This document shows positions 38,859 through 55,672 of a stretch of 64,000 nt of DNA, in pieces. Location of the stretch: positions 1,798,001 through 1,862,000 of the forward strand of contig NZ_CP017641.1 in the NCBI RefSeq assembly GCF_001983935.1. Reading direction: 5' to 3'. Numbering within the stretch: position 1 is the first letter of the stretch; each line of letters begins with the position of its first letter. A model generated the notes under the pieces. That model ran no database searches. It was not told the DNA's origin and was given only the letters and a program-made list of their open reading frames with translations. The translations under genes and the position numbers were made by a program. This DNA is from Fuerstiella marisgermanici. Lineage in GTDB: Bacteria > Planctomycetota > Planctomycetia > Planctomycetales > Planctomycetaceae.

Positions 38859-39557
38859 ATGCGACTTACCATTCCGTGCGTACTCATCCTGGTTCTTGCG
38901 ACGTCGTCACTGCCTGCATTTCAGCCGCCCGTCAACCGCGGTCCCGCGACCAACGAGCCACCCGCGTCTCCGTACGTTCAACGCATGATGTCGCTGGATC
39001 GAAACAACGACGGCCAGCTATCGGCCGAAGAGCTACCCGGGAAGTTGGCGGACCTAATCAGCAAACACGACCGCAACAACGACAAGGTCCTGACGGCTGC
39101 AGAACTATCGCAAATGGAATCTGAAGCCAAAGCCGCACGCGACACTCGGCCCGCAGCAGAAATGTTAGCCAGAGGCAGTGGACCAGCAGGACGACGCGGT
39201 CGGGCCGGACGTGGACGTCGAGGTGCCGCGAATGCTCAGCACGGCAGCCCGCTGGACGCCGCACAGATTTTGAAATTTGCACTGACGTTCGATCATGACG
39301 GAGATGGCGGTCTGAATGCGACAGAACTGCAGGCATATGCGGACGCACTCGCCATACGCCGCGCGGCGGCTCGCAATCGGCATGGGACGAATGCGAATGA
39401 CCAGCCTGCAGAACAGCGCCCACCTGGCAGCCGGACACCTTCGGCCGATGTCGACAATAACCAGCCGGTTAAGCCTCGCGGGCTGAAAGCTGACGGCAGC
39501 GGCGATGGCGGATTTGGCGACGCGCCGCTTAACGGCTCGTTATCAAAAGGGCTGTAG
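38859..39557 (+). CDS. Secreted EF-hand protein
   Basis: A 232-residue protein with signal peptide (RLTIPCVLILVLATSSLPAFQ) and three EF-hand loops: LDRNNDGQLSAEEL near 47-60, HDRNNDKVLTAAEL near 72-85 and FDHDGDGGLNATEL near 147-160. Between them is an Arg/Gly-rich linker (GRRGRAGRGRRGAAN), and the tail is Pro/Asp-rich and probably disordered. It would bind calcium outside the cytoplasm. Short EF-hand proteins are abundant in planctomycetes; partner unknown. Confidence 0.88.
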   Translation: MRLTIPCVLILVLATSSLPAFQPPVNRGPATNEPPASPYVQRMMSLDRNNDGQLSAEELPGKLADLISKHDRNNDKVLTAAELSQMESEAKAARDTRPAAEMLARGSGPAGRRGRAGRGRRGAANAQHGSPLDAAQILKFALTFDHDGDGGLNATELQAYADALAIRRAAARNRHGTNANDQPAEQRPPGSRTPSADVDNNQPVKPRGLKADGSGDGGFGDAPLNGSLSKGL

Positions 39558-47015: not shown

Positions 47016-47708
47016 ATGCCCATCGTCCTGCAAATGAACAACGTTGGCCGCACGTTTTCCACAGCCGCTGGCGAACTGACCATTCTGGATAACGTCAACC
47101 TGCAGCTTTCGTCCGGCGATGCGGTGGCGCTGCAGGGCCCGTCCGGATGTGGTAAGAGCACACTACTGCATATCGCAGGGACTCTGGACAAACCCACGTC
47201 CGGTGAAGTCGCCATTTTGAATGAGAACCCGTGGCACTTGTCGGCCGAAAAACTAGCCGGCTTTCGCAACCAGCATATCGGTTTCGTGTTTCAGGAACAC
47301 CAGCTTCTGCCGCAGTGCAGCGTGCTGGAAAACGTGCTGCTGCCAACGCTGGCGGGTTTCGATCGCGACGTGAAGCCACTGAAGAAACGGGCCGTAGAGC
47401 TGCTTGAACAAGTCGGCCTGCAGGACCGGAGTGCTCACCGACCAGCGGCATTATCGGGCGGTGAACGCCAGCGAGTTGCCGTTTGCCGCGCGTTGATCCA
47501 CCAGCCGTCTTTGCTGCTGGCCGACGAGCCCACAGGCAATCTGGATCCGGCGACGGCCGACACAGTGGGCTCGCTACTGCTGAAAATGGCGGCCGAACAC
47601 GATGCGGCGTTGTTGTGCGTGACTCACAGCAACGACCTGGCCAGCCACTTTCCGCACGTGGTGCAGGTCGAGAACCGCACCGTGGCATTTTCCGCCGTGA
47701 CCAACTGA
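47016..47708 (+). CDS. LolD/MacB-like ABC transporter ATP-binding protein, no permease nearby
   Basis: A 230-residue ABC ATPase: Walker A GPSGCGKSTL near residue 43, Q-loop VFQEHQLLPQCSVLENVLLP, signature LSGGERQRVAVCRAL, Walker [13 protein letters not shown], and the H-loop VTHSND. The Q-loop and EPTGNLD stretch place it in the LolD/FtsE/MacB group. The matching FtsX/LolC-type permease is not adjacent; the efflux operon 800 bp downstream has its own ATPase. Start 3 bp after the metallo-hydrolase stop suggests co-transcription. Confidence 0.93.
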   Translation: MPIVLQMNNVGRTFSTAAGELTILDNVNLQLSSGDAVALQGPSGCGKSTLLHIAGTLDKPTSGEVAILNENPWHLSAEKLAGFRNQHIGFVFQEHQLLPQCSVLENVLLPTLAGFDRDVKPLKKRAVELLEQVGLQDRSAHRPAALSGGERQRVAVCRALIHQPSLLLADEPTGNLDPATADTVGSLLLKMAAEHDAALLCVTHSNDLASHFPHVVQVENRTVAFSAVTN

Positions 47709-48500: not shown

Positions 48501-51308
48501 ATGAGAATTTCAGTCACACAATCGGCATGGAATCGCCGCATTGCAGGTTTGCTGCTGGCGATGATGGTGTTGCCCGCATTCAGCGGCTGCTCCCGCAAAT
48601 TCTGGCGAGAACAGGCCGAGGGCGACACCTACCGCGCCATTTCAGAAAAGCTCACCGACGAACGCTGGCAAAATCCGCGGATGAGCCTGACTCCCGATAA
48701 GCGGAGCCGGTTTTACGATCCGTATGATCCAGACAAGCCGCCGCTGCCGCCCGACGATCCGGCCGCTCATCAGTTCATGCACTGCGTGGATGGCAAAGAA
48801 CATTTCAAATACTGGCACGCCACGGGCGACACCGTGACAGTGGAAAATCCGGCGTGGCTGGAACCCTACGAAGTTTTGCTGAACAGCGGCAATCCAGTGG
48901 AAGGCCATGAGTTGGTCGAGATTCCAAAGGTCGATCTCGCCGCGGCTGTCGATCTGACCTACATCCACAGCCGCGAATATCAGTTTCAGGTAGAAGAGGT
49001 CTATCTGCGTGCTTTGGCGCTGACTCAGCAGCGATTTCAACTTAACACACAATTCAACCTCGTTCCTGCCGGTTTTGGCGGAGCGAATCTTTCGGCTGGC
49101 TTTCCACACAACGGCGGTAGGAATGCAACCCTGTTGAACGGCTTGGGCGTGCAACAGCGGCTGCCAGCCGGTGGACAATTTGCTGTCGGCGTGCTGAACT
49201 CCATCACATGGAGAGCAGGACAAGGCATGGGCTCGGCTCCATCACTCGGCTGGAGTATCACTCAGCCGTTACTGAATCTGGCGGGGCGAAAGGTGACTCT
49301 CGAAAATTTGACGCAGTCTGAACGTAATCTGCTCTACGAAGTTCGTGACATGGCGCGATTTCGGCAGGTTCTGTTTACGAACGTTGCCAACGATTACCTG
49401 CGCCTGCAGCAGTCAGCGCAGAACATTATCAACGCGGAAAACAACATCCGGCAGATCGAACAACAGATTGAAGTCGGAAGAGCGGATGATGATCGTGAAT
49501 ACCGAAAACTCTCGGTGCCCTTGGTCGACTTCCCGGAAGATGCCGAGATTCCCGAATCCCTCAAAGACAAAGTGATCTATGGGGACGACTTCCTGACGTG
49601 GCTCGGAGTGGAAATCACGGACGAGCAGAAAGCCGATCTCCTGGCGATTTCCGACGGAAGTGCGTTTCAGGCCGCCGCGCAGGAACTGATTCAGTTGCGA
49701 GAAACTGAGACCATTAACCTGACCGTTCTTCAGCTTGTGACACGACTGAATCAGCAGCAGAACGCTTTGAAGAACTCCAGACGGCAACTCAGGGACCAAC
49801 TGGATGCGTTCAAAATTCGCCTCGGCCTGCCACCGAATGTCGAATTGACAATCGATGACACGTTTATCACACCGTTCGAACTGATCGACGCAGATCTACT
49901 GGCATTCGTTGACAAACTGAATGATTTCGCCAAAGAACAGGGGCCGGCGATGCTGCCGGGCAGTGACGTGCCTGGTGACGTCGAAAGATCCGCACCGGAT
50001 TTTGAGCAGCTCAAAAAATACGTTGCCACGCTTGTCGAAATCAAAGATCGAATTACCACAGAACTGGACCAGGTGAAGCAAGACTTTGTACCTGTTCGTG
50101 ATGTGCTCGATGCAACAAGTCCGGAGAATCTGCAACCGGAAAAACGGTTGCGAGCATTTGGAACTGTGGAAGAGCGTGAACGGGTGATCCACGATGTGGC
50201 CAACGACCTGCGACTGTACCGCCTGATCGCTCAAAAGTTTGAACAGATCTCCGCTTCATTGGATATCTTCAATCAAACACTGCAAATGGAGAGCGTCGAT
50301 GAGGTCGTGAAGGCCCTCGACAAGGACGGCGACAACCTGATTGCGCCGAGCGAATTACCATTGGACTGGAACAACCTGCCCAGCATGAGCTTTCAGAAAA
50401 TCACGGAGAAAAAAACGGGCGAAGAATTTCTGGGGATGGTCCGCGACGCCTCGATGGATATGCGGGAGCGACTGGTGAAGATCGTCGCTGGCCTGCAGGT
50501 TGTACAGGCTGGTTTAAGGGTGGAAGTGATTGCCTTGAACCCGTTCACGCTTCCTGGCAGCGACGAAACCCCCGATCTTGAAGAAGTCGTCGTGATTGCT
50601 ATCAACAACCGACATGACCTCATGAACGCACGAGCCGCCGTCATGGACAGTCGACGGAAAGTAGAAATCGCGGCAAACGCCCTGATGGCGAAACTGGATG
50701 TCACAGTCGGCGGACAAGTCGACCCGGACAGCGGCAACAATGATTCGACGAATGTCACCATTGACTTCAAGACGCCACTTAACCAGGTTGTTGCCCGCAA
50801 TGTCTACAACGCGGCACTAATCGACTATCAACGAGATCGCCGATCGTACATGTCGCTGGAAGACAGCGTGAAACAGAGCGTCCGCAGTAGTTGGCGGCAG
50901 CTCATGGTGAACAAAGAACAGTTGGAAATTGACCGGCAAACGGTCAGGATTTCGGCTTTGCAATACGACAATGTGGCCTCGGGCGGAGGAGGAGGGGGCG
51001 GCGGCAACGCCTTGAACCTGTTGAACGCCTTGAGTTCGGTCCTGACGGCTCAAAACTCACTTGTGAGCGATTGGGTAAGTTATGAGTCAAATCGTCTTAA
51101 CATCTTCCGGGACATGGGTATCATGGAGCTAGATCCTAACGGCGTCTGGGAGGACGAATTCTACCAACTGGACGACCAACCTACCTCAGAAGACATGCCT
51201 GCGTCGTCTGAATTGTTCCCAGAATTGCAGTCGGATACTGGATTGCAATCTGATGCGACTGTGACGGATCCGGAACCTGCCATCCCTGTTTTGCCGGAGA
51301 TCCCTTAG
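48501..51308 (+). CDS. TolC-family outer-membrane efflux lipoprotein, oversized, with EF-hand loop
   Basis: A 935-residue outer-membrane factor, about twice the usual TolC length. The N terminus is a lipoprotein-like signal ending PAFSGC (Cys30). TolC-like helical repeats occur around residues 230-330 (SLGWSITQPLLNLAGRKVTLENL; FTNVANDYLRLQQSAQNI) and 700-880 (VVIAINNRHDLMNARAAVMDSRRKVEIA; SVKQSVRSSWRQLMVNKEQLEIDRQTV). The long middle part contains a canonical EF-hand loop DKDGDNLIAPSE near 606-618. A run of nine glycines lies near 830. Stop is directly followed by the adaptor gene start. It would form the outer exit duct of the pump. Confidence 0.88.
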   Translation: MRISVTQSAWNRRIAGLLLAMMVLPAFSGCSRKFWREQAEGDTYRAISEKLTDERWQNPRMSLTPDKRSRFYDPYDPDKPPLPPDDPAAHQFMHCVDGKEHFKYWHATGDTVTVENPAWLEPYEVLLNSGNPVEGHELVEIPKVDLAAAVDLTYIHSREYQFQVEEVYLRALALTQQRFQLNTQFNLVPAGFGGANLSAGFPHNGGRNATLLNGLGVQQRLPAGGQFAVGVLNSITWRAGQGMGSAPSLGWSITQPLLNLAGRKVTLENLTQSERNLLYEVRDMARFRQVLFTNVANDYLRLQQSAQNIINAENNIRQIEQQIEVGRADDDREYRKLSVPLVDFPEDAEIPESLKDKVIYGDDFLTWLGVEITDEQKADLLAISDGSAFQAAAQELIQLRETETINLTVLQLVTRLNQQQNALKNSRRQLRDQLDAFKIRLGLPPNVELTIDDTFITPFELIDADLLAFVDKLNDFAKEQGPAMLPGSDVPGDVERSAPDFEQLKKYVATLVEIKDRITTELDQVKQDFVPVRDVLDATSPENLQPEKRLRAFGTVEERERVIHDVANDLRLYRLIAQKFEQISASLDIFNQTLQMESVDEVVKALDKDGDNLIAPSELPLDWNNLPSMSFQKITEKKTGEEFLGMVRDASMDMRERLVKIVAGLQVVQAGLRVEVIALNPFTLPGSDETPDLEEVVVIAINNRHDLMNARAAVMDSRRKVEIAANALMAKLDVTVGGQVDPDSGNNDSTNVTIDFKTPLNQVVARNVYNAALIDYQRDRRSYMSLEDSVKQSVRSSWRQLMVNKEQLEIDRQTVRISALQYDNVASGGGGGGGGNALNLLNALSSVLTAQNSLVSDWVSYESNRLNIFRDMGIMELDPNGVWEDEFYQLDDQPTSEDMPASSELFPELQSDTGLQSDATVTDPEPAIPVLPEIP

Positions 51309-53423
51309 ATGAACAAGACTATTCCACGTTCGCTGCGACAACAGACTGTGTCACGGCGAGGCGGTGCGAAGGGCGTTGCGATTGCCGTTGTTGTACTGGT
51401 ACTGGGCGTTGTGGCCTGGCGACTACCAGCCACGCAGGCACTGATCGGCGACTACCTTGGCAAAAAAGAAGGCGAGCCCAACAGTAAGTATATTCTGCAT
51501 AAGGCCGAAGTCGGATCCTTCCGAATTACGATCACCGAAAACGGTACGGTCGACAGTTCCAGCAACTCCACGCTGACCAACAGTGTGGAAGGCTCGACCA
51601 CCATTATTTCTTTGGTGCCTGAAGGCAGCAAAGTGAACGCACCGGTCGTCGCCGAAGTCGATGGCGTGGTCGAATTCGTCGACGTGGAATCAGAATCCGA
51701 AAAGACAGTTCTGGTTCGCCCGGAAGAAGGTGAACCGAAAACCTACACCTTCCCAATGGGCGAATTCACCGAGCTGTTGGTTAAGGACCGTCAGCAGATT
51801 AAGAAGGGCGAGTACATCGCCGGCGACATGGTCTGCGAACTCGATTCGTCGACGCTGGTGGAAAAAGAAAAGCAGCAGCAGATCGATGTCACGACAGCTC
51901 GAGCCGACCTGGAGAAAGCTGAAACGAACCTGCAGATCCGGGAGACTACCAACGAAAGCGTCGAAGCTCAGGCACGCTTGGCAGAAAAGCTCGCGGAGCT
52001 GGATTTCACAAAATACACGGCTGAGGGCGGCGAATTTAGGAATCAAGTAGAGCAGCTGAACGGTGACATCAAAGCGTTGGAAGAAACGCTGGCGATCAAC
52101 CAGGAGAACTACGAAAAAGTACGCGACCAGGCTCGCCGCGGTTACACGAACCTGAACGCTCTGGAAGCGGCTCGTATCGAAGTCACCAAGCAACAGATTC
52201 TGGTGAGCGTTAAAGAGAGCGAACTGAAGCTTCTGCAAAACTTCACATGGGAACGCACCAAAAGCGAACTCGAGCAGATGAAGGAAGATACCGTTCGCGA
52301 AACCACGCGAGCGATCCTTGAAGGCAAGGCTGCGATGGCTGGGCTAAAGGCAGACGTCCAGGCTCGCAAGCTGACGCTGTCCGTCGAAGAGGAAAAGCTG
52401 GAGCGGACGTTGCGGCAAATCAAAGCCTGCCGGCTGATTGCACCTCAGCAGGGTGAAGTCGTTTATGCGTCGCAGGAAAGTCGCCGCAGCGAACCCGTGG
52501 TCATCGAAGAAGGTGCGACCGTTCGAGAACGCCAGGCGATTATTAATCTGCCGGACCTCGAGAAAATGAAAATCGACGCCCGAATTCACGAATCTCGCAT
52601 TAGCCGCGTCATGCTTGGTCAGCCGGTCGAAATTTCGATTGACGCACTGCCCAGTACGACGTTCCACGGCGTGCTTGAAACGATTTCGTCTGTGCCGGTG
52701 CCGGGCAGCTGGCCCAACACGGACCTAAAAGAATACGAAGCCGGAATCAAGATCACAGACCGAGCTGATACCGTGCGGCAACTGAAGCCGGGCATGACGG
52801 CCGAGATTCGCATCATTGTGGACGACCGACAGGAAGACGTTCTGCAAATTCCGGTGCAGTCTGTGCTATCAATTGCGAATAAGTTCTTCACCTACGTAGC
52901 GAAGGGCAGCGAGATCGAACGCCGCGAATTGAAGGTCGGCGACGCCAACGACGAATACATGGAGATCATTGACGGCGTGGCAGAAGGCGAACGAGTCGTC
53001 ATGAATCCTCGCACCCATTTCTCGCGTGAGATCAATGAACTGGAAGTCAAGCTGCTAGGCGAACAGGAAGACAACCGCGAACGCACCGTCATTCCGAATC
53101 GTAGCGAACTCGGACCAGGCGGTGGTCCCGGCGGACGGGGTGCCGGACGCCCGGGCGGCGGGCAAGGCAACCGTGGTGAAGGCAAGGACGGGGCAGACAA
53201 GGGCAACGGCCAGCAGGCCGAACGTCCCGCAGGTGGCGGACCGCCCGGTGGTGCTGGTGGAGCACCAGATCCTTCTGCGATCTTTGCTCGCCTGGACAAG
53301 AACGGTGACGGTTCCATCACGAAGGATGAAAGTGATATGCGGGGCAATTTTGATAAAACCGATGCCGATGGTGACGGAAAAATCACAATGGAAGAACTGA
53401 AGACTGCCTTCAGTCAGCGATAG
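51309..53423 (+). CDS. HlyD/MacA-like periplasmic adaptor with C-terminal EF-hand pair
   Basis: A 704-residue membrane-fusion protein. Inner-membrane helix at about 20-38 (GVAIAVVVLVLGVVAWRLP), a lipoyl-like half, a long coiled-coil hairpin (about 180-370), the second lipoyl half (CRLIAPQQGEVVYASQE), a beta-barrel (MKIDARIHESRISRVMLGQPVEI) and a membrane-proximal domain. After a Gly/Pro/Arg-rich linker at about 600-655 two EF-hand loops end the chain: DKNGDGSITKDE and DADGDGKITMEE. It begins one base after the TolC stop, so the genes are tightly coupled. The calcium-binding tail is unusual for an adaptor. Confidence 0.92.
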   Translation: MNKTIPRSLRQQTVSRRGGAKGVAIAVVVLVLGVVAWRLPATQALIGDYLGKKEGEPNSKYILHKAEVGSFRITITENGTVDSSSNSTLTNSVEGSTTIISLVPEGSKVNAPVVAEVDGVVEFVDVESESEKTVLVRPEEGEPKTYTFPMGEFTELLVKDRQQIKKGEYIAGDMVCELDSSTLVEKEKQQQIDVTTARADLEKAETNLQIRETTNESVEAQARLAEKLAELDFTKYTAEGGEFRNQVEQLNGDIKALEETLAINQENYEKVRDQARRGYTNLNALEAARIEVTKQQILVSVKESELKLLQNFTWERTKSELEQMKEDTVRETTRAILEGKAAMAGLKADVQARKLTLSVEEEKLERTLRQIKACRLIAPQQGEVVYASQESRRSEPVVIEEGATVRERQAIINLPDLEKMKIDARIHESRISRVMLGQPVEISIDALPSTTFHGVLETISSVPVPGSWPNTDLKEYEAGIKITDRADTVRQLKPGMTAEIRIIVDDRQEDVLQIPVQSVLSIANKFFTYVAKGSEIERRELKVGDANDEYMEIIDGVAEGERVVMNPRTHFSREINELEVKLLGEQEDNRERTVIPNRSELGPGGGPGGRGAGRPGGGQGNRGEGKDGADKGNGQQAERPAGGGPPGGAGGAPDPSAIFARLDKNGDGSITKDESDMRGNFDKTDADGDGKITMEELKTAFSQR

Positions 53424-53552
53424 TTCAGCAAAGTGTTGAATGCAGTCGTCCGGCATGGACAATATTGGCCTGCCGGATCTGCGTTCACCGATTGCCGACA
53501 TCAACCCCCTCCTCCGATTCCTCACACTGCGCATTACTTCCCGGGTCTCATT

Positions 53553-54284
53553 ATGGACTTTGCCGCTCAGGTCATCGACATTCAAAAGCACTTTGACCTT
53601 GGTTCGGTCGTTGTGAAGGCGTTGCGTGGGGTGTCAATTGATTTCCCGCACGGCGACTTTGTCGCGATCATGGGGTCGTCGGGAAGCGGCAAGAGTACGC
53701 TGCTGAACTTGCTGGGCGCATTGGACCGACCAACTCATGGTGAGTACGTCATTGGGGGGCGACCGGTGTCGTCGATTTCTGACGACGACCTGTCTGCCAT
53801 TCGCAACGAAATGATTGGGTTCATTTTCCAGTCGTACAACCTGATCCCTCAGTATACGGTCGTGGAAAACATCGAAGTGCCTCTGCACTACCGCACGGGC
53901 TACCCGACGATTTCGGCAAAAGACACGAAGCACATCGAAGAACTGGCCTCAATGGTCGGACTGGCCGACCGCCTGGACCATCGGCCGTTTCAGTTGTCAG
54001 GTGGACAGCAGCAGCGCGTGGCGATTGCACGAGCCCTCGTTAACGACCCGCAGATCATTCTGGCGGACGAACCGACCGGAAACCTCGACTCCGCCACAGA
54101 AGCGGAGATCATGGATATCCTCTTGAAACTGAACGCCGAGGGGCGCACCATCATTATGGTGACCCACGAACCTGAAGTTGCCAAACTCGCCAAGCGACAG
54201 ATTTATATGAAGGACGGATTGGTCGCGGGCGAAGGCGTATTCCCGGGACGGGAAGCCGAAGCTCCAGTAGAAGCAGCGAAGTAG
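53553..54284 (+). CDS. MacB-type ABC transporter ATP-binding subunit
   Basis: A 243-residue ABC ATPase: Walker [10 protein letters not shown] near residue 45, Q-loop [21 protein letters not shown], signature [15 protein letters not shown], Walker [15 protein letters not shown] and H-loop VTHEPE. The LIPQYTVxENxxxPL and EPTGNLD signatures place it with MacB/LolD ATPases. It is a separate chain from the permease, unlike E. coli MacB. The start at 53553 is set by homology; upstream codons in the same frame show none. Together with genes before and after it forms a MacAB-TolC-like efflux system. Confidence 0.95.
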
Positions 54285-54331
54285 CTGAGTTGATAAAAGC
54301 CTGGGGCGATCGTAGCGATTGAGAACTAAAT

Positions 54332-55672
54332 ATGCCGAACCTGCTTCGAACCATTCAACTGGCGATGAAAAGCCTGATGCTGCATAAGCTGCGCTCAGGA
54401 CTTACCATGCTGGGCATCGTCTTCGGCGTCTACTCGGTGATCGCGATGTTGGCGATCGGCCAGGGAGCCAGCGAACAGGCTCAGGCTCAGGTCCTGCAAC
54501 TGGGGGCCACCAATATCATCGTTCGCAGCCTGAAGCCGCCACCGGAAAGTGCCACCAACAGCGGAGGCGGTTCCGTTTTACGGTACGGTCTGTTGCGGTC
54601 TGACTTCGACCTGCTGGACAGGACCATCCCCACCATCAATCAGGCAATTCCGATTCGGGAATTGACCAAAACCGCGCGGCATCGCGACCGCGAACTGAAC
54701 GCTCGCATCGTTGGCGGTACGCCTGAGTACCTCGACATCAACCATCTGTCGATGGCTCAGGGGCGGTTCCTGTCCGACGACGATCGAGAGCAAAAAAAGA
54801 ACGTCGCGGTACTCGCCTCCGGCACGGCAGACACGCTGTTTCAATACGAAAACCCGGTGGGGCAGTCGGTTCGCATCGCGGATCGGTTCTACACCATCGT
54901 GGGCGTCACCATGCCTCGCCAGGCCAGCGCCGCAGTGGGCGGCAGCATGTCCGGACAGGACTTCAACCTGGACATCTACATTCCACTGGAAACTATGCGC
55001 GTGCGCATGGGGGACCTGAACATCGACCGCAAACCCGGATCGTTTAGTTCAGAATACTGGGAGTTAAGCCAGATCACGTTGCGAGTTAATTCGCAGGACA
55101 AAGTTGTCGAAACAGCCAACGTTGTCCGCGAGAGCATGAAGCGAAACCATAAATCAGACAGCGACTACGCCATCACTGTGCCGCTGGAATTGCTAAAGCA
55201 GGCCGAACAGATTCAGGGCATTTTCAACGTCGTACTGGGAGCCATCGCGCTGATTAGTCTGGTGGTCGGCGGCATCGGCATCATGAACATCATGCTGGCC
55301 ACAGTCACAGAACGAACGCGGGAAATCGGAATTCGGCGAGCCCTCGGGGCCAAGCGTCGCGACATCACGGTGCAGTTTTTGACGGAAACCATCGTGCTTT
55401 CCGGGACCGGCGGTTTGATCGGTATGGCGCTCGGATTTTTGACGCCTCAGGCCTTTGCCGGGCTGCGATACTTTGTGGAACGATTCATCTTCGAAGGCGG
55501 CAAAGCGGGCAACGAATTCTCGGAAATGTTCTCTCAAATGAACCCTCAGGTCGTTCCTGCCAGTCTACCGCTGGCCTTCGGCATTTCGGTGTTTATTGGA
55601 GTCATGTTCGGGCTGTACCCGGCGTGGTCGGCTGCGAAACTGGACCCGATCGAAGCTCTACGGCACGAATAG
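54332..55672 (+). CDS. MacB/FtsX-type ABC transporter permease
   Basis: A 446-residue permease: N-terminal helix in [21 protein letters not shown], a large periplasmic MacB_PCD domain (about 45-270: [38 protein letters not shown]), then three helices in the FtsX domain, [61 protein letters not shown] and a final [35 protein letters not shown]. These are the signature blocks of MacB permeases. It works with the ATPase 47 bp upstream, the adaptor and the TolC-type protein. Confidence 0.96.

Follow-up and report, generated by a model that had tools for sequence, protein, structure and literature searches.

A planctomycete tripartite pump with an EF-hand pair in its adaptor and an EF-hand-like loop in its channel

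Why should two components of one efflux pump carry loops of the EF-hand type, and what would calcium do there? This question is raised by a four-gene operon of the planctomycete Fuerstiella marisgermanici, located on the plus strand at positions 48501-55672 of the window, by which we mean the whole stretch of 64,000 nucleotides that was analysed. An initial annotation had reported EF-hands in both the outer-membrane factor and the adaptor encoded here and had suggested calcium-dependent assembly or gating of the pump. The four genes are as follows:

48501..51308, plus strand: outer-membrane factor, TolC/OprM-like channel, 935 aa (PF02321 OEP, 2.1e-12; TolC-like model)
51309..53423, plus strand: periplasmic adaptor, membrane fusion protein (MFP) of MacA-type fold, 704 aa (PF16576, 7.8e-9; Foldseek)
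53553..54284, plus strand: ABC ATPase of the MacB/LolD type (PF00005, 3.6e-34)
54332..55672, plus strand: MacB-type permease (PF12704, 3e-38; PF02687, 1.5e-19)

The first base of the adaptor gene directly follows the last base of the channel gene (51308 to 51309). The channel protein belongs to the TolC/OEP family by its PF02321 score (47.7 bits; cut-off 22) and by the TolC fold of its model (mean pLDDT 73.9; match to 1ek9 with Z 25.7, rmsd 7.4 and 362 residues aligned); it remained under the cut-off of TIGR01844, and a candidate lipobox, FSGC, read in the sequence, suggests a possible lipoprotein. The adaptor falls into the HlyD/MFP superfamily by its PF16576 score (35.6 bits; cut-off 30) and its MFP fold, and was below the cut-off of TIGR01730 (76.9 versus 94.9). 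The predicted structure (mean pLDDT 83.9) is that of a membrane fusion protein: it has a long helical hairpin and, at residues 655-703, an EF pair modelled with confidence. The adaptor's top PDB matches in Foldseek were MacA of MacAB-TolC (9qgy_G and 5nik_D), with EmrA also among the closest.

With the MacAB-TolC pump of E. coli, this operon shares the adaptor fold, the TolC-fold channel and the MacB-type permease domains. It differs in that the ATPase and the permease are encoded by separate genes, the adaptor has an EF-hand tail and an extra barrel-sandwich-like insert, and the channel has a helical-bundle insert with an EF loop. The best NCBIfam model for the ATPase was MacB (3.3e-70), under that model's cut-off; the MacB equivalog NF007826 asks for 966 bits in one ATPase-permease protein, whereas the split genes gave 237.1 bits for the ATPase and 175.6 bits for the permease, and the adaptor reached 46.4 bits against the 342 of the MacA equivalog NF008606. 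Because these equivalog scores were not reached, we did not file the pump as MacA or MacB, although by analogy it would work like MacAB-TolC. The adaptor insert is the following:

51642..51818, plus strand: extra barrel-sandwich-like insert in the adaptor, residues about 112-170 (weak structural-family match)

It bears a weak likeness to the hybrid region of the RNA polymerase beta' subunit (PDB E 1.2e-4), and is found in the clade of the window and some of its neighbours and missing from others.

Named relatives of the operon locus were found in Fuerstiella and in other Planctomycetaceae. Among the five window neighbours that were queried, the ABC ATPase was the sole query with relatives at the loci (61), which may simply reflect the ATPase of the operon itself. 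Neighbour clusters extended to 13 loci at best, and no substrate was inferred from the flanking genes. A LolD-like ABC ATPase gene lies upstream of the operon (window 47016-47708, plus strand); the approximately 800 bases after it contain no convincing gene, and no permease gene follows it directly.

At the adaptor C-terminus, the sequence and the model agree on two canonical EF-hands behind a linker:

53094..53258, plus strand: Gly/Pro-rich linker of the adaptor, residues 596-650 (predicted disordered, pLDDT < 50)
53295..53330, plus strand: adaptor EF loop 1, DKNGDGSITKDE, residues 663-674 (in-frame sequence, Pfam, conservation, model)
53361..53396, plus strand: adaptor EF loop 2, DADGDGKITMEE, residues 685-696 (in-frame sequence, Pfam, conservation, model)

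PF13202 matched two stretches of the tail at 1.7e-10 and 40.3 bits, above its curated cut-off of 25.9, and the tail carries the 12-residue loop D-x-[DN]-x-D-G-x-[ILV]-x-x-x-E that marks the EF-hand superfamily. Helices were predicted at residues 655-662, 681-684 and 694-703 and strands at 669-671 and 691-693, giving a helix-loop-helix pair with short connecting strands; in the model, these strands occupy positions 7-9 of both loops, as in paired EF-hands, with a pLDDT of 81-93. As its N-terminus should be anchored in the inner membrane, by inference from the family, the adaptor tail should be periplasmic, and the MFP fold suggests that the linker exits the core at the membrane-proximal end. 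Judged from their residues, the canonical loops very likely bind Ca2+. All three loops of the initial annotation, two here and one in the channel, proved exact and in frame, and the Gly-rich linker that it placed before the adaptor pair is present.

We gathered 60 orthologous loci from relatives and 79 loci from named genomes. With identical tails removed, 102 of 110 distinct adaptors were assessable, and the EF pair was present in 88 and absent in 14, so the loops are not a feature of one genome that orthologues fail to conserve. The loop starts of the 88 pairs were 22 residues apart in 24 cases, 23 in 3, 24 in 55, 25 in 4 and 26 in 2, with gaps between the loops of 10-14 residues, mostly 10 or 12. 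In a 60-row alignment (A3), consisting of the adaptor of the window and 59 of 66 listed adaptors, loop 1 kept D1 in 58 rows and D5, G6 and E12 in 57 each, and loop 2 kept D1, G6 and E12 in 58 each and D5 in 57, and the linker was poorly alignable Gly/Pro-rich sequence. Five of the seven adaptors dropped from this alignment (L096, L133, L139, L143, L147, L149 and L151) lack the EF pair. The alignment of adaptor cores (A1) comprised 27 of 34 listed cores and that of the window, and the alignment of tails (A4) 40 of 58 listed tails; all 40 tails tested matched both PF13202 and PF00036 at E ≤ 0.001.

The loops resemble those of lanmodulin in their 12 residues and their short spacing (mostly 10 or 12 residues here; 12-13 in lanmodulin, according to the part of PMC11845868 available to us), and differ in that they lack Pro at position 2, number two rather than four and form a domain of a pump adaptor. 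Position 2 was K, A or T in all 58 copies of loop 1 present, no P occurred there in the 58 rows of loop 2, and position 9 was mostly T or S and rarely D or E, a pattern more in keeping with Ca2+ binding than with lanmodulin-type lanthanide sites. Assignment to lanmodulin was rejected at 15.7 bits against the 135 of NF053806, with no Pro at position 2 of either adaptor loop, and assignment to dockerin type I at 15.7 bits against the 22.9 of PF00404.

In a tree of 101 adaptor cores (L057, which is short, and L222, a copy of L002, were left out), the window fell within a 60-row clade with a support of 100, containing 49 EF-positive, 9 EF-negative and 2 unknown rows, and the whole tree required at least nine changes of EF state. 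Read from this tree, the EF pair appears to be ancestral to the clade, with approximately seven separate losses within it. The lineages that lost the tail retained the adaptor gene, mostly with the operon. The EF pair also occurs in other families of the class (L184-L190 and L202), whereas two adaptor paralogues of the same genome and other planctomycete lineages have different tails. Because of the approximately seven losses and these different tails, the role of the tail appears to be dispensable, and small modules seem to be exchanged at the adaptor C-terminus. Beyond the low-complexity linker, the adaptors of L191-L194, L201, L203, L204, L208, L209, L213, L214, L218 and L223 end in different tails that are often helical-looking (for example, TPEERRK or LSEEDRAK), and the EF-negative orthologues L082 and L083 have very acidic tails that are probably disordered.

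The channel loop lies in what had been described as a long middle region, which proved to be an insert between the two OEP repeats:

49872..50531, plus strand: inter-repeat channel insert, predicted helical bundle, residues about 458-677 (predicted helices)
50295..50426, plus strand: EF module at the insert tip, residues 599-642 (AF2 secondary structure, hhalign)
50319..50354, plus strand: channel EF loop, DKDGDNLIAPSE, residues 607-618 (in-frame sequence, conservation)

The model places helices of the insert at residues 464-484, 501-527, 529-538, 556-593 and 640-676, and the segment 458-674 gave generic four-helix-bundle matches, such as the FAT domain 1k05 (Z 8.9, rmsd 4.0, 131 residues aligned). 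The EF loop is predicted at the tip of the last hairpin of this insert, and the module consists of an E helix (599-606), the loop (607-618) and a possible degenerate second loop (631-642). In the single-protein models, the loops of both proteins thus lie outside the core, those of the adaptor in a flexible tail and that of the channel at a hairpin tip, rather than being buried. The position of the insert probably corresponds to the H4-H5 equatorial loop of channels, which a review (PMC8277102, seen in part) places within a variable domain important for function and adaptor recruitment.

By itself, the channel loop of the window had no significant Pfam match (its 100-aa stretch gave E 0.099 and 12.7 bits; cut-off 25.4), and the insert matched no family at E ≤ 0.01. 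Among the orthologous channel segments, 9 of 23 matched PF00036 at E ≤ 0.01, and the family profile of the insert matched PDB EF-hand chains at 1.3e-11. Because the single-protein Pfam score fails, we call the insert EF-hand-like on this family evidence, that is, on the profile and the conserved ligands. Of 96 channel rows, 28 had the loop, and these all belong to a single Fuerstiella-like clade, the one nearest the window. In an alignment of the window channel and 41 of 61 listed channels (A2), D1 and E12 were kept in 23 of 23 loop-bearing channels, positions 3 and 5 held [DNS], G6 was found in 18 of 23, and the EF rule at positions 3, 5, 6 and 8 was kept almost throughout; the remaining 19 aligned channels lack the 35-residue insert. 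The EF-hands claimed for both components of one pump are therefore upheld, for the adaptor by Pfam and for the channel by family evidence.

The two modules also appear to be related to each other, as hhalign of the 23 channel segments against the 40 adaptor tails gave 96.9% over 51 columns. Of 13 non-overlapping slices of the channel, the loop-bearing one was the sole match to the adaptor tails, and the 19 insert-less channels did not match the adaptor-tail profile. After the channel loop come a conserved ELPxxWxxLP and a stretch resembling a decayed second loop. A complete two-hand module in the channel was only partly supported, since the second loop is degenerate or absent and the second half of the module alone gave 1.3% against the adaptor tails. 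The extended alignment and the predicted bridge residues 614 and 638 suggest a second hand that may have decayed.

A loose EF-loop pattern matched six times when the ORFs of all six frames of the window (34,123 aa) were scanned, always within one of three ORFs: the channel, the adaptor and a protein at 38859-39557. In the 8.9-Mb genome, PF13202 gave at least eight matches in at least six ORFs at E ≤ 0.001, of which the adaptor was the best among the matches listed; this list is not exhaustive, because the EF-hand protein at 38859-39557 is missing from it. The genome yielded 28 distinct adaptor ORFs for comparison, taken from the 30 loci retained out of 77 matches, and the EF pair was present in one of them, the window adaptor; a second pattern match was an irregular single loop in L253. 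Among 20 OEP ORFs, from 30 loci kept of 35 matches, three matched the pattern: the window channel and two related ORFs with DRNTDQH[IV]AFVE, which lacks Gly at position 6. The window channel is the sole one of these 20 whose loop lies in an otherwise EF-like segment. Conservation and these genome controls rule out a single chance motif.

We then compared the two modules across loci. Of the 28 loop-bearing channels, 23 were accompanied by an adaptor pair, one (lineage L045) keeps its channel loop with no adaptor tail, and four were not judgeable; of the 68 loop-less channels, 57 had an adaptor pair (one with a third pattern match), seven had none, and four were not judgeable. An EF-hand adaptor was thus present beside 57 of the 64 loop-less channels with a judgeable adaptor, indicating that neither EF module requires the other. 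An obligatory handshake between the EF-hands of adaptor and channel is not supported by these 57 pairs without a channel loop and the one loop without a pair.

Building on the sequence, conservation and predicted structure of the EF modules established above, we proposed a MacAB-TolC-like pump with acquired EF modules that serve as Ca2+-folded accessory docking arms, a reading to which we give about even weight. At its C-terminus, the adaptor would have gained a flexibly tethered domain of two EF-hands; in one clade, a related EF module would have been added to the channel, on the tip of the inter-repeat helical bundle. The cytoplasm is low in calcium relative to the periplasm, and the modules would be unfolded in the former, fold on Ca2+ once periplasmic, and then, as accessory arms, dock onto a partner within the pump or another envelope component. 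At the calcium levels of the periplasm, in marine or hard water, canonical EF sites are expected to be saturated; because they should stay loaded, a structural or stabilising role is more likely than that of an on/off gate, and the gating suggested initially is not supported as stated. The tail losses and the absence of strict coupling between adaptor and channel argue for accessory modules. As the tail was repeatedly lost while the adaptor persisted, and L045 keeps the loop without the tail, these are probably accessory docking modules and not an obligatory assembly switch, which speaks against calcium-dependent assembly as an obligatory role.

It is possible, though on balance doubtful, that calcium-dependent contacts hold together or tune the planctomycete tripartite ABC pump and determine its docking across the envelope. 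With the copy numbers of MacAB-TolC, the six adaptor tails would contribute as many as twelve Ca2+ sites and the channel equator another three. Through a conserved calcium-binding module on adaptor and channel, an ion would act directly on the periplasmic part of an ABC pump, an idea that can be probed with small, soluble domains, and a calcium-tuned adaptor mode, if true, would be undescribed for MacA-type pumps in the literature searched. In that search, which covered some sources in part, EF-hands were not reported for any tripartite pump; EfhP (Pseudomonas) and CaBP (Caulobacter) are also bacterial EF-hand proteins that bind or respond to calcium, but the openings of their abstracts do not describe parts of tripartite pumps. 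A 2026 review of adaptors (PMC13328181), in the portion available, describes MacA-type adaptors as mainly passive scaffolds that appear to be without direct structural tuning, and calcium and EF-hand are absent from that main text.

We consider it unlikely that the EF pairs are a passive, mobile module, a common planctomycete tail domain with no pump-specific role. The repeated loss or swapping of the tail and the other secreted EF-hand ORFs of the genome, with pairs 23-24 residues apart, would be expected of such a module, but the listed PF13202 matches at E ≤ 0.001 fall in only six ORFs of the 8.9-Mb genome, the ligand residues are almost invariant over divergent adaptors, and the pair occurs in only one of the 28 adaptor ORFs examined. 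A dynamic switch, in which the EF-hands gain and lose calcium as its envelope level changes and thereby gate assembly or export, is more doubtful still: the presence of canonical, conserved sites in both adaptor and channel, and the response of adaptors such as AcrA and CusB to physicochemical cues or substrate (PMC13328181, seen in part), speak for it, but in marine or hard water, saturation of such sites is to be expected, the adaptor tail has been lost repeatedly, and the two modules are mutually independent. Equally improbable is the capture of cargo (for example, via bound calcium) or the scavenging of metal for the pump by the tethered pair, for which the flexible tether, its likely membrane-proximal exit and the lanmodulin-like spacing (10-14 residues versus 12-13, PMC11845868) could be cited, but against which stand the missing Pro at position 2, the rarity of D or E at position 9 and the low score of the lanmodulin model.

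Two further EF-hand proteins were observed in the genome. The protein at window 38859-39557 (plus strand), 9 kb upstream of the pump operon, is a secreted protein of 232 aa with loops at 47, 71 and 145, the first two of which start 24 residues apart. The other, L226 (G000:C1:7066748), is a four-loop EF-hand ORF approximately 18 kb from the paralogous adaptor at 7047813.
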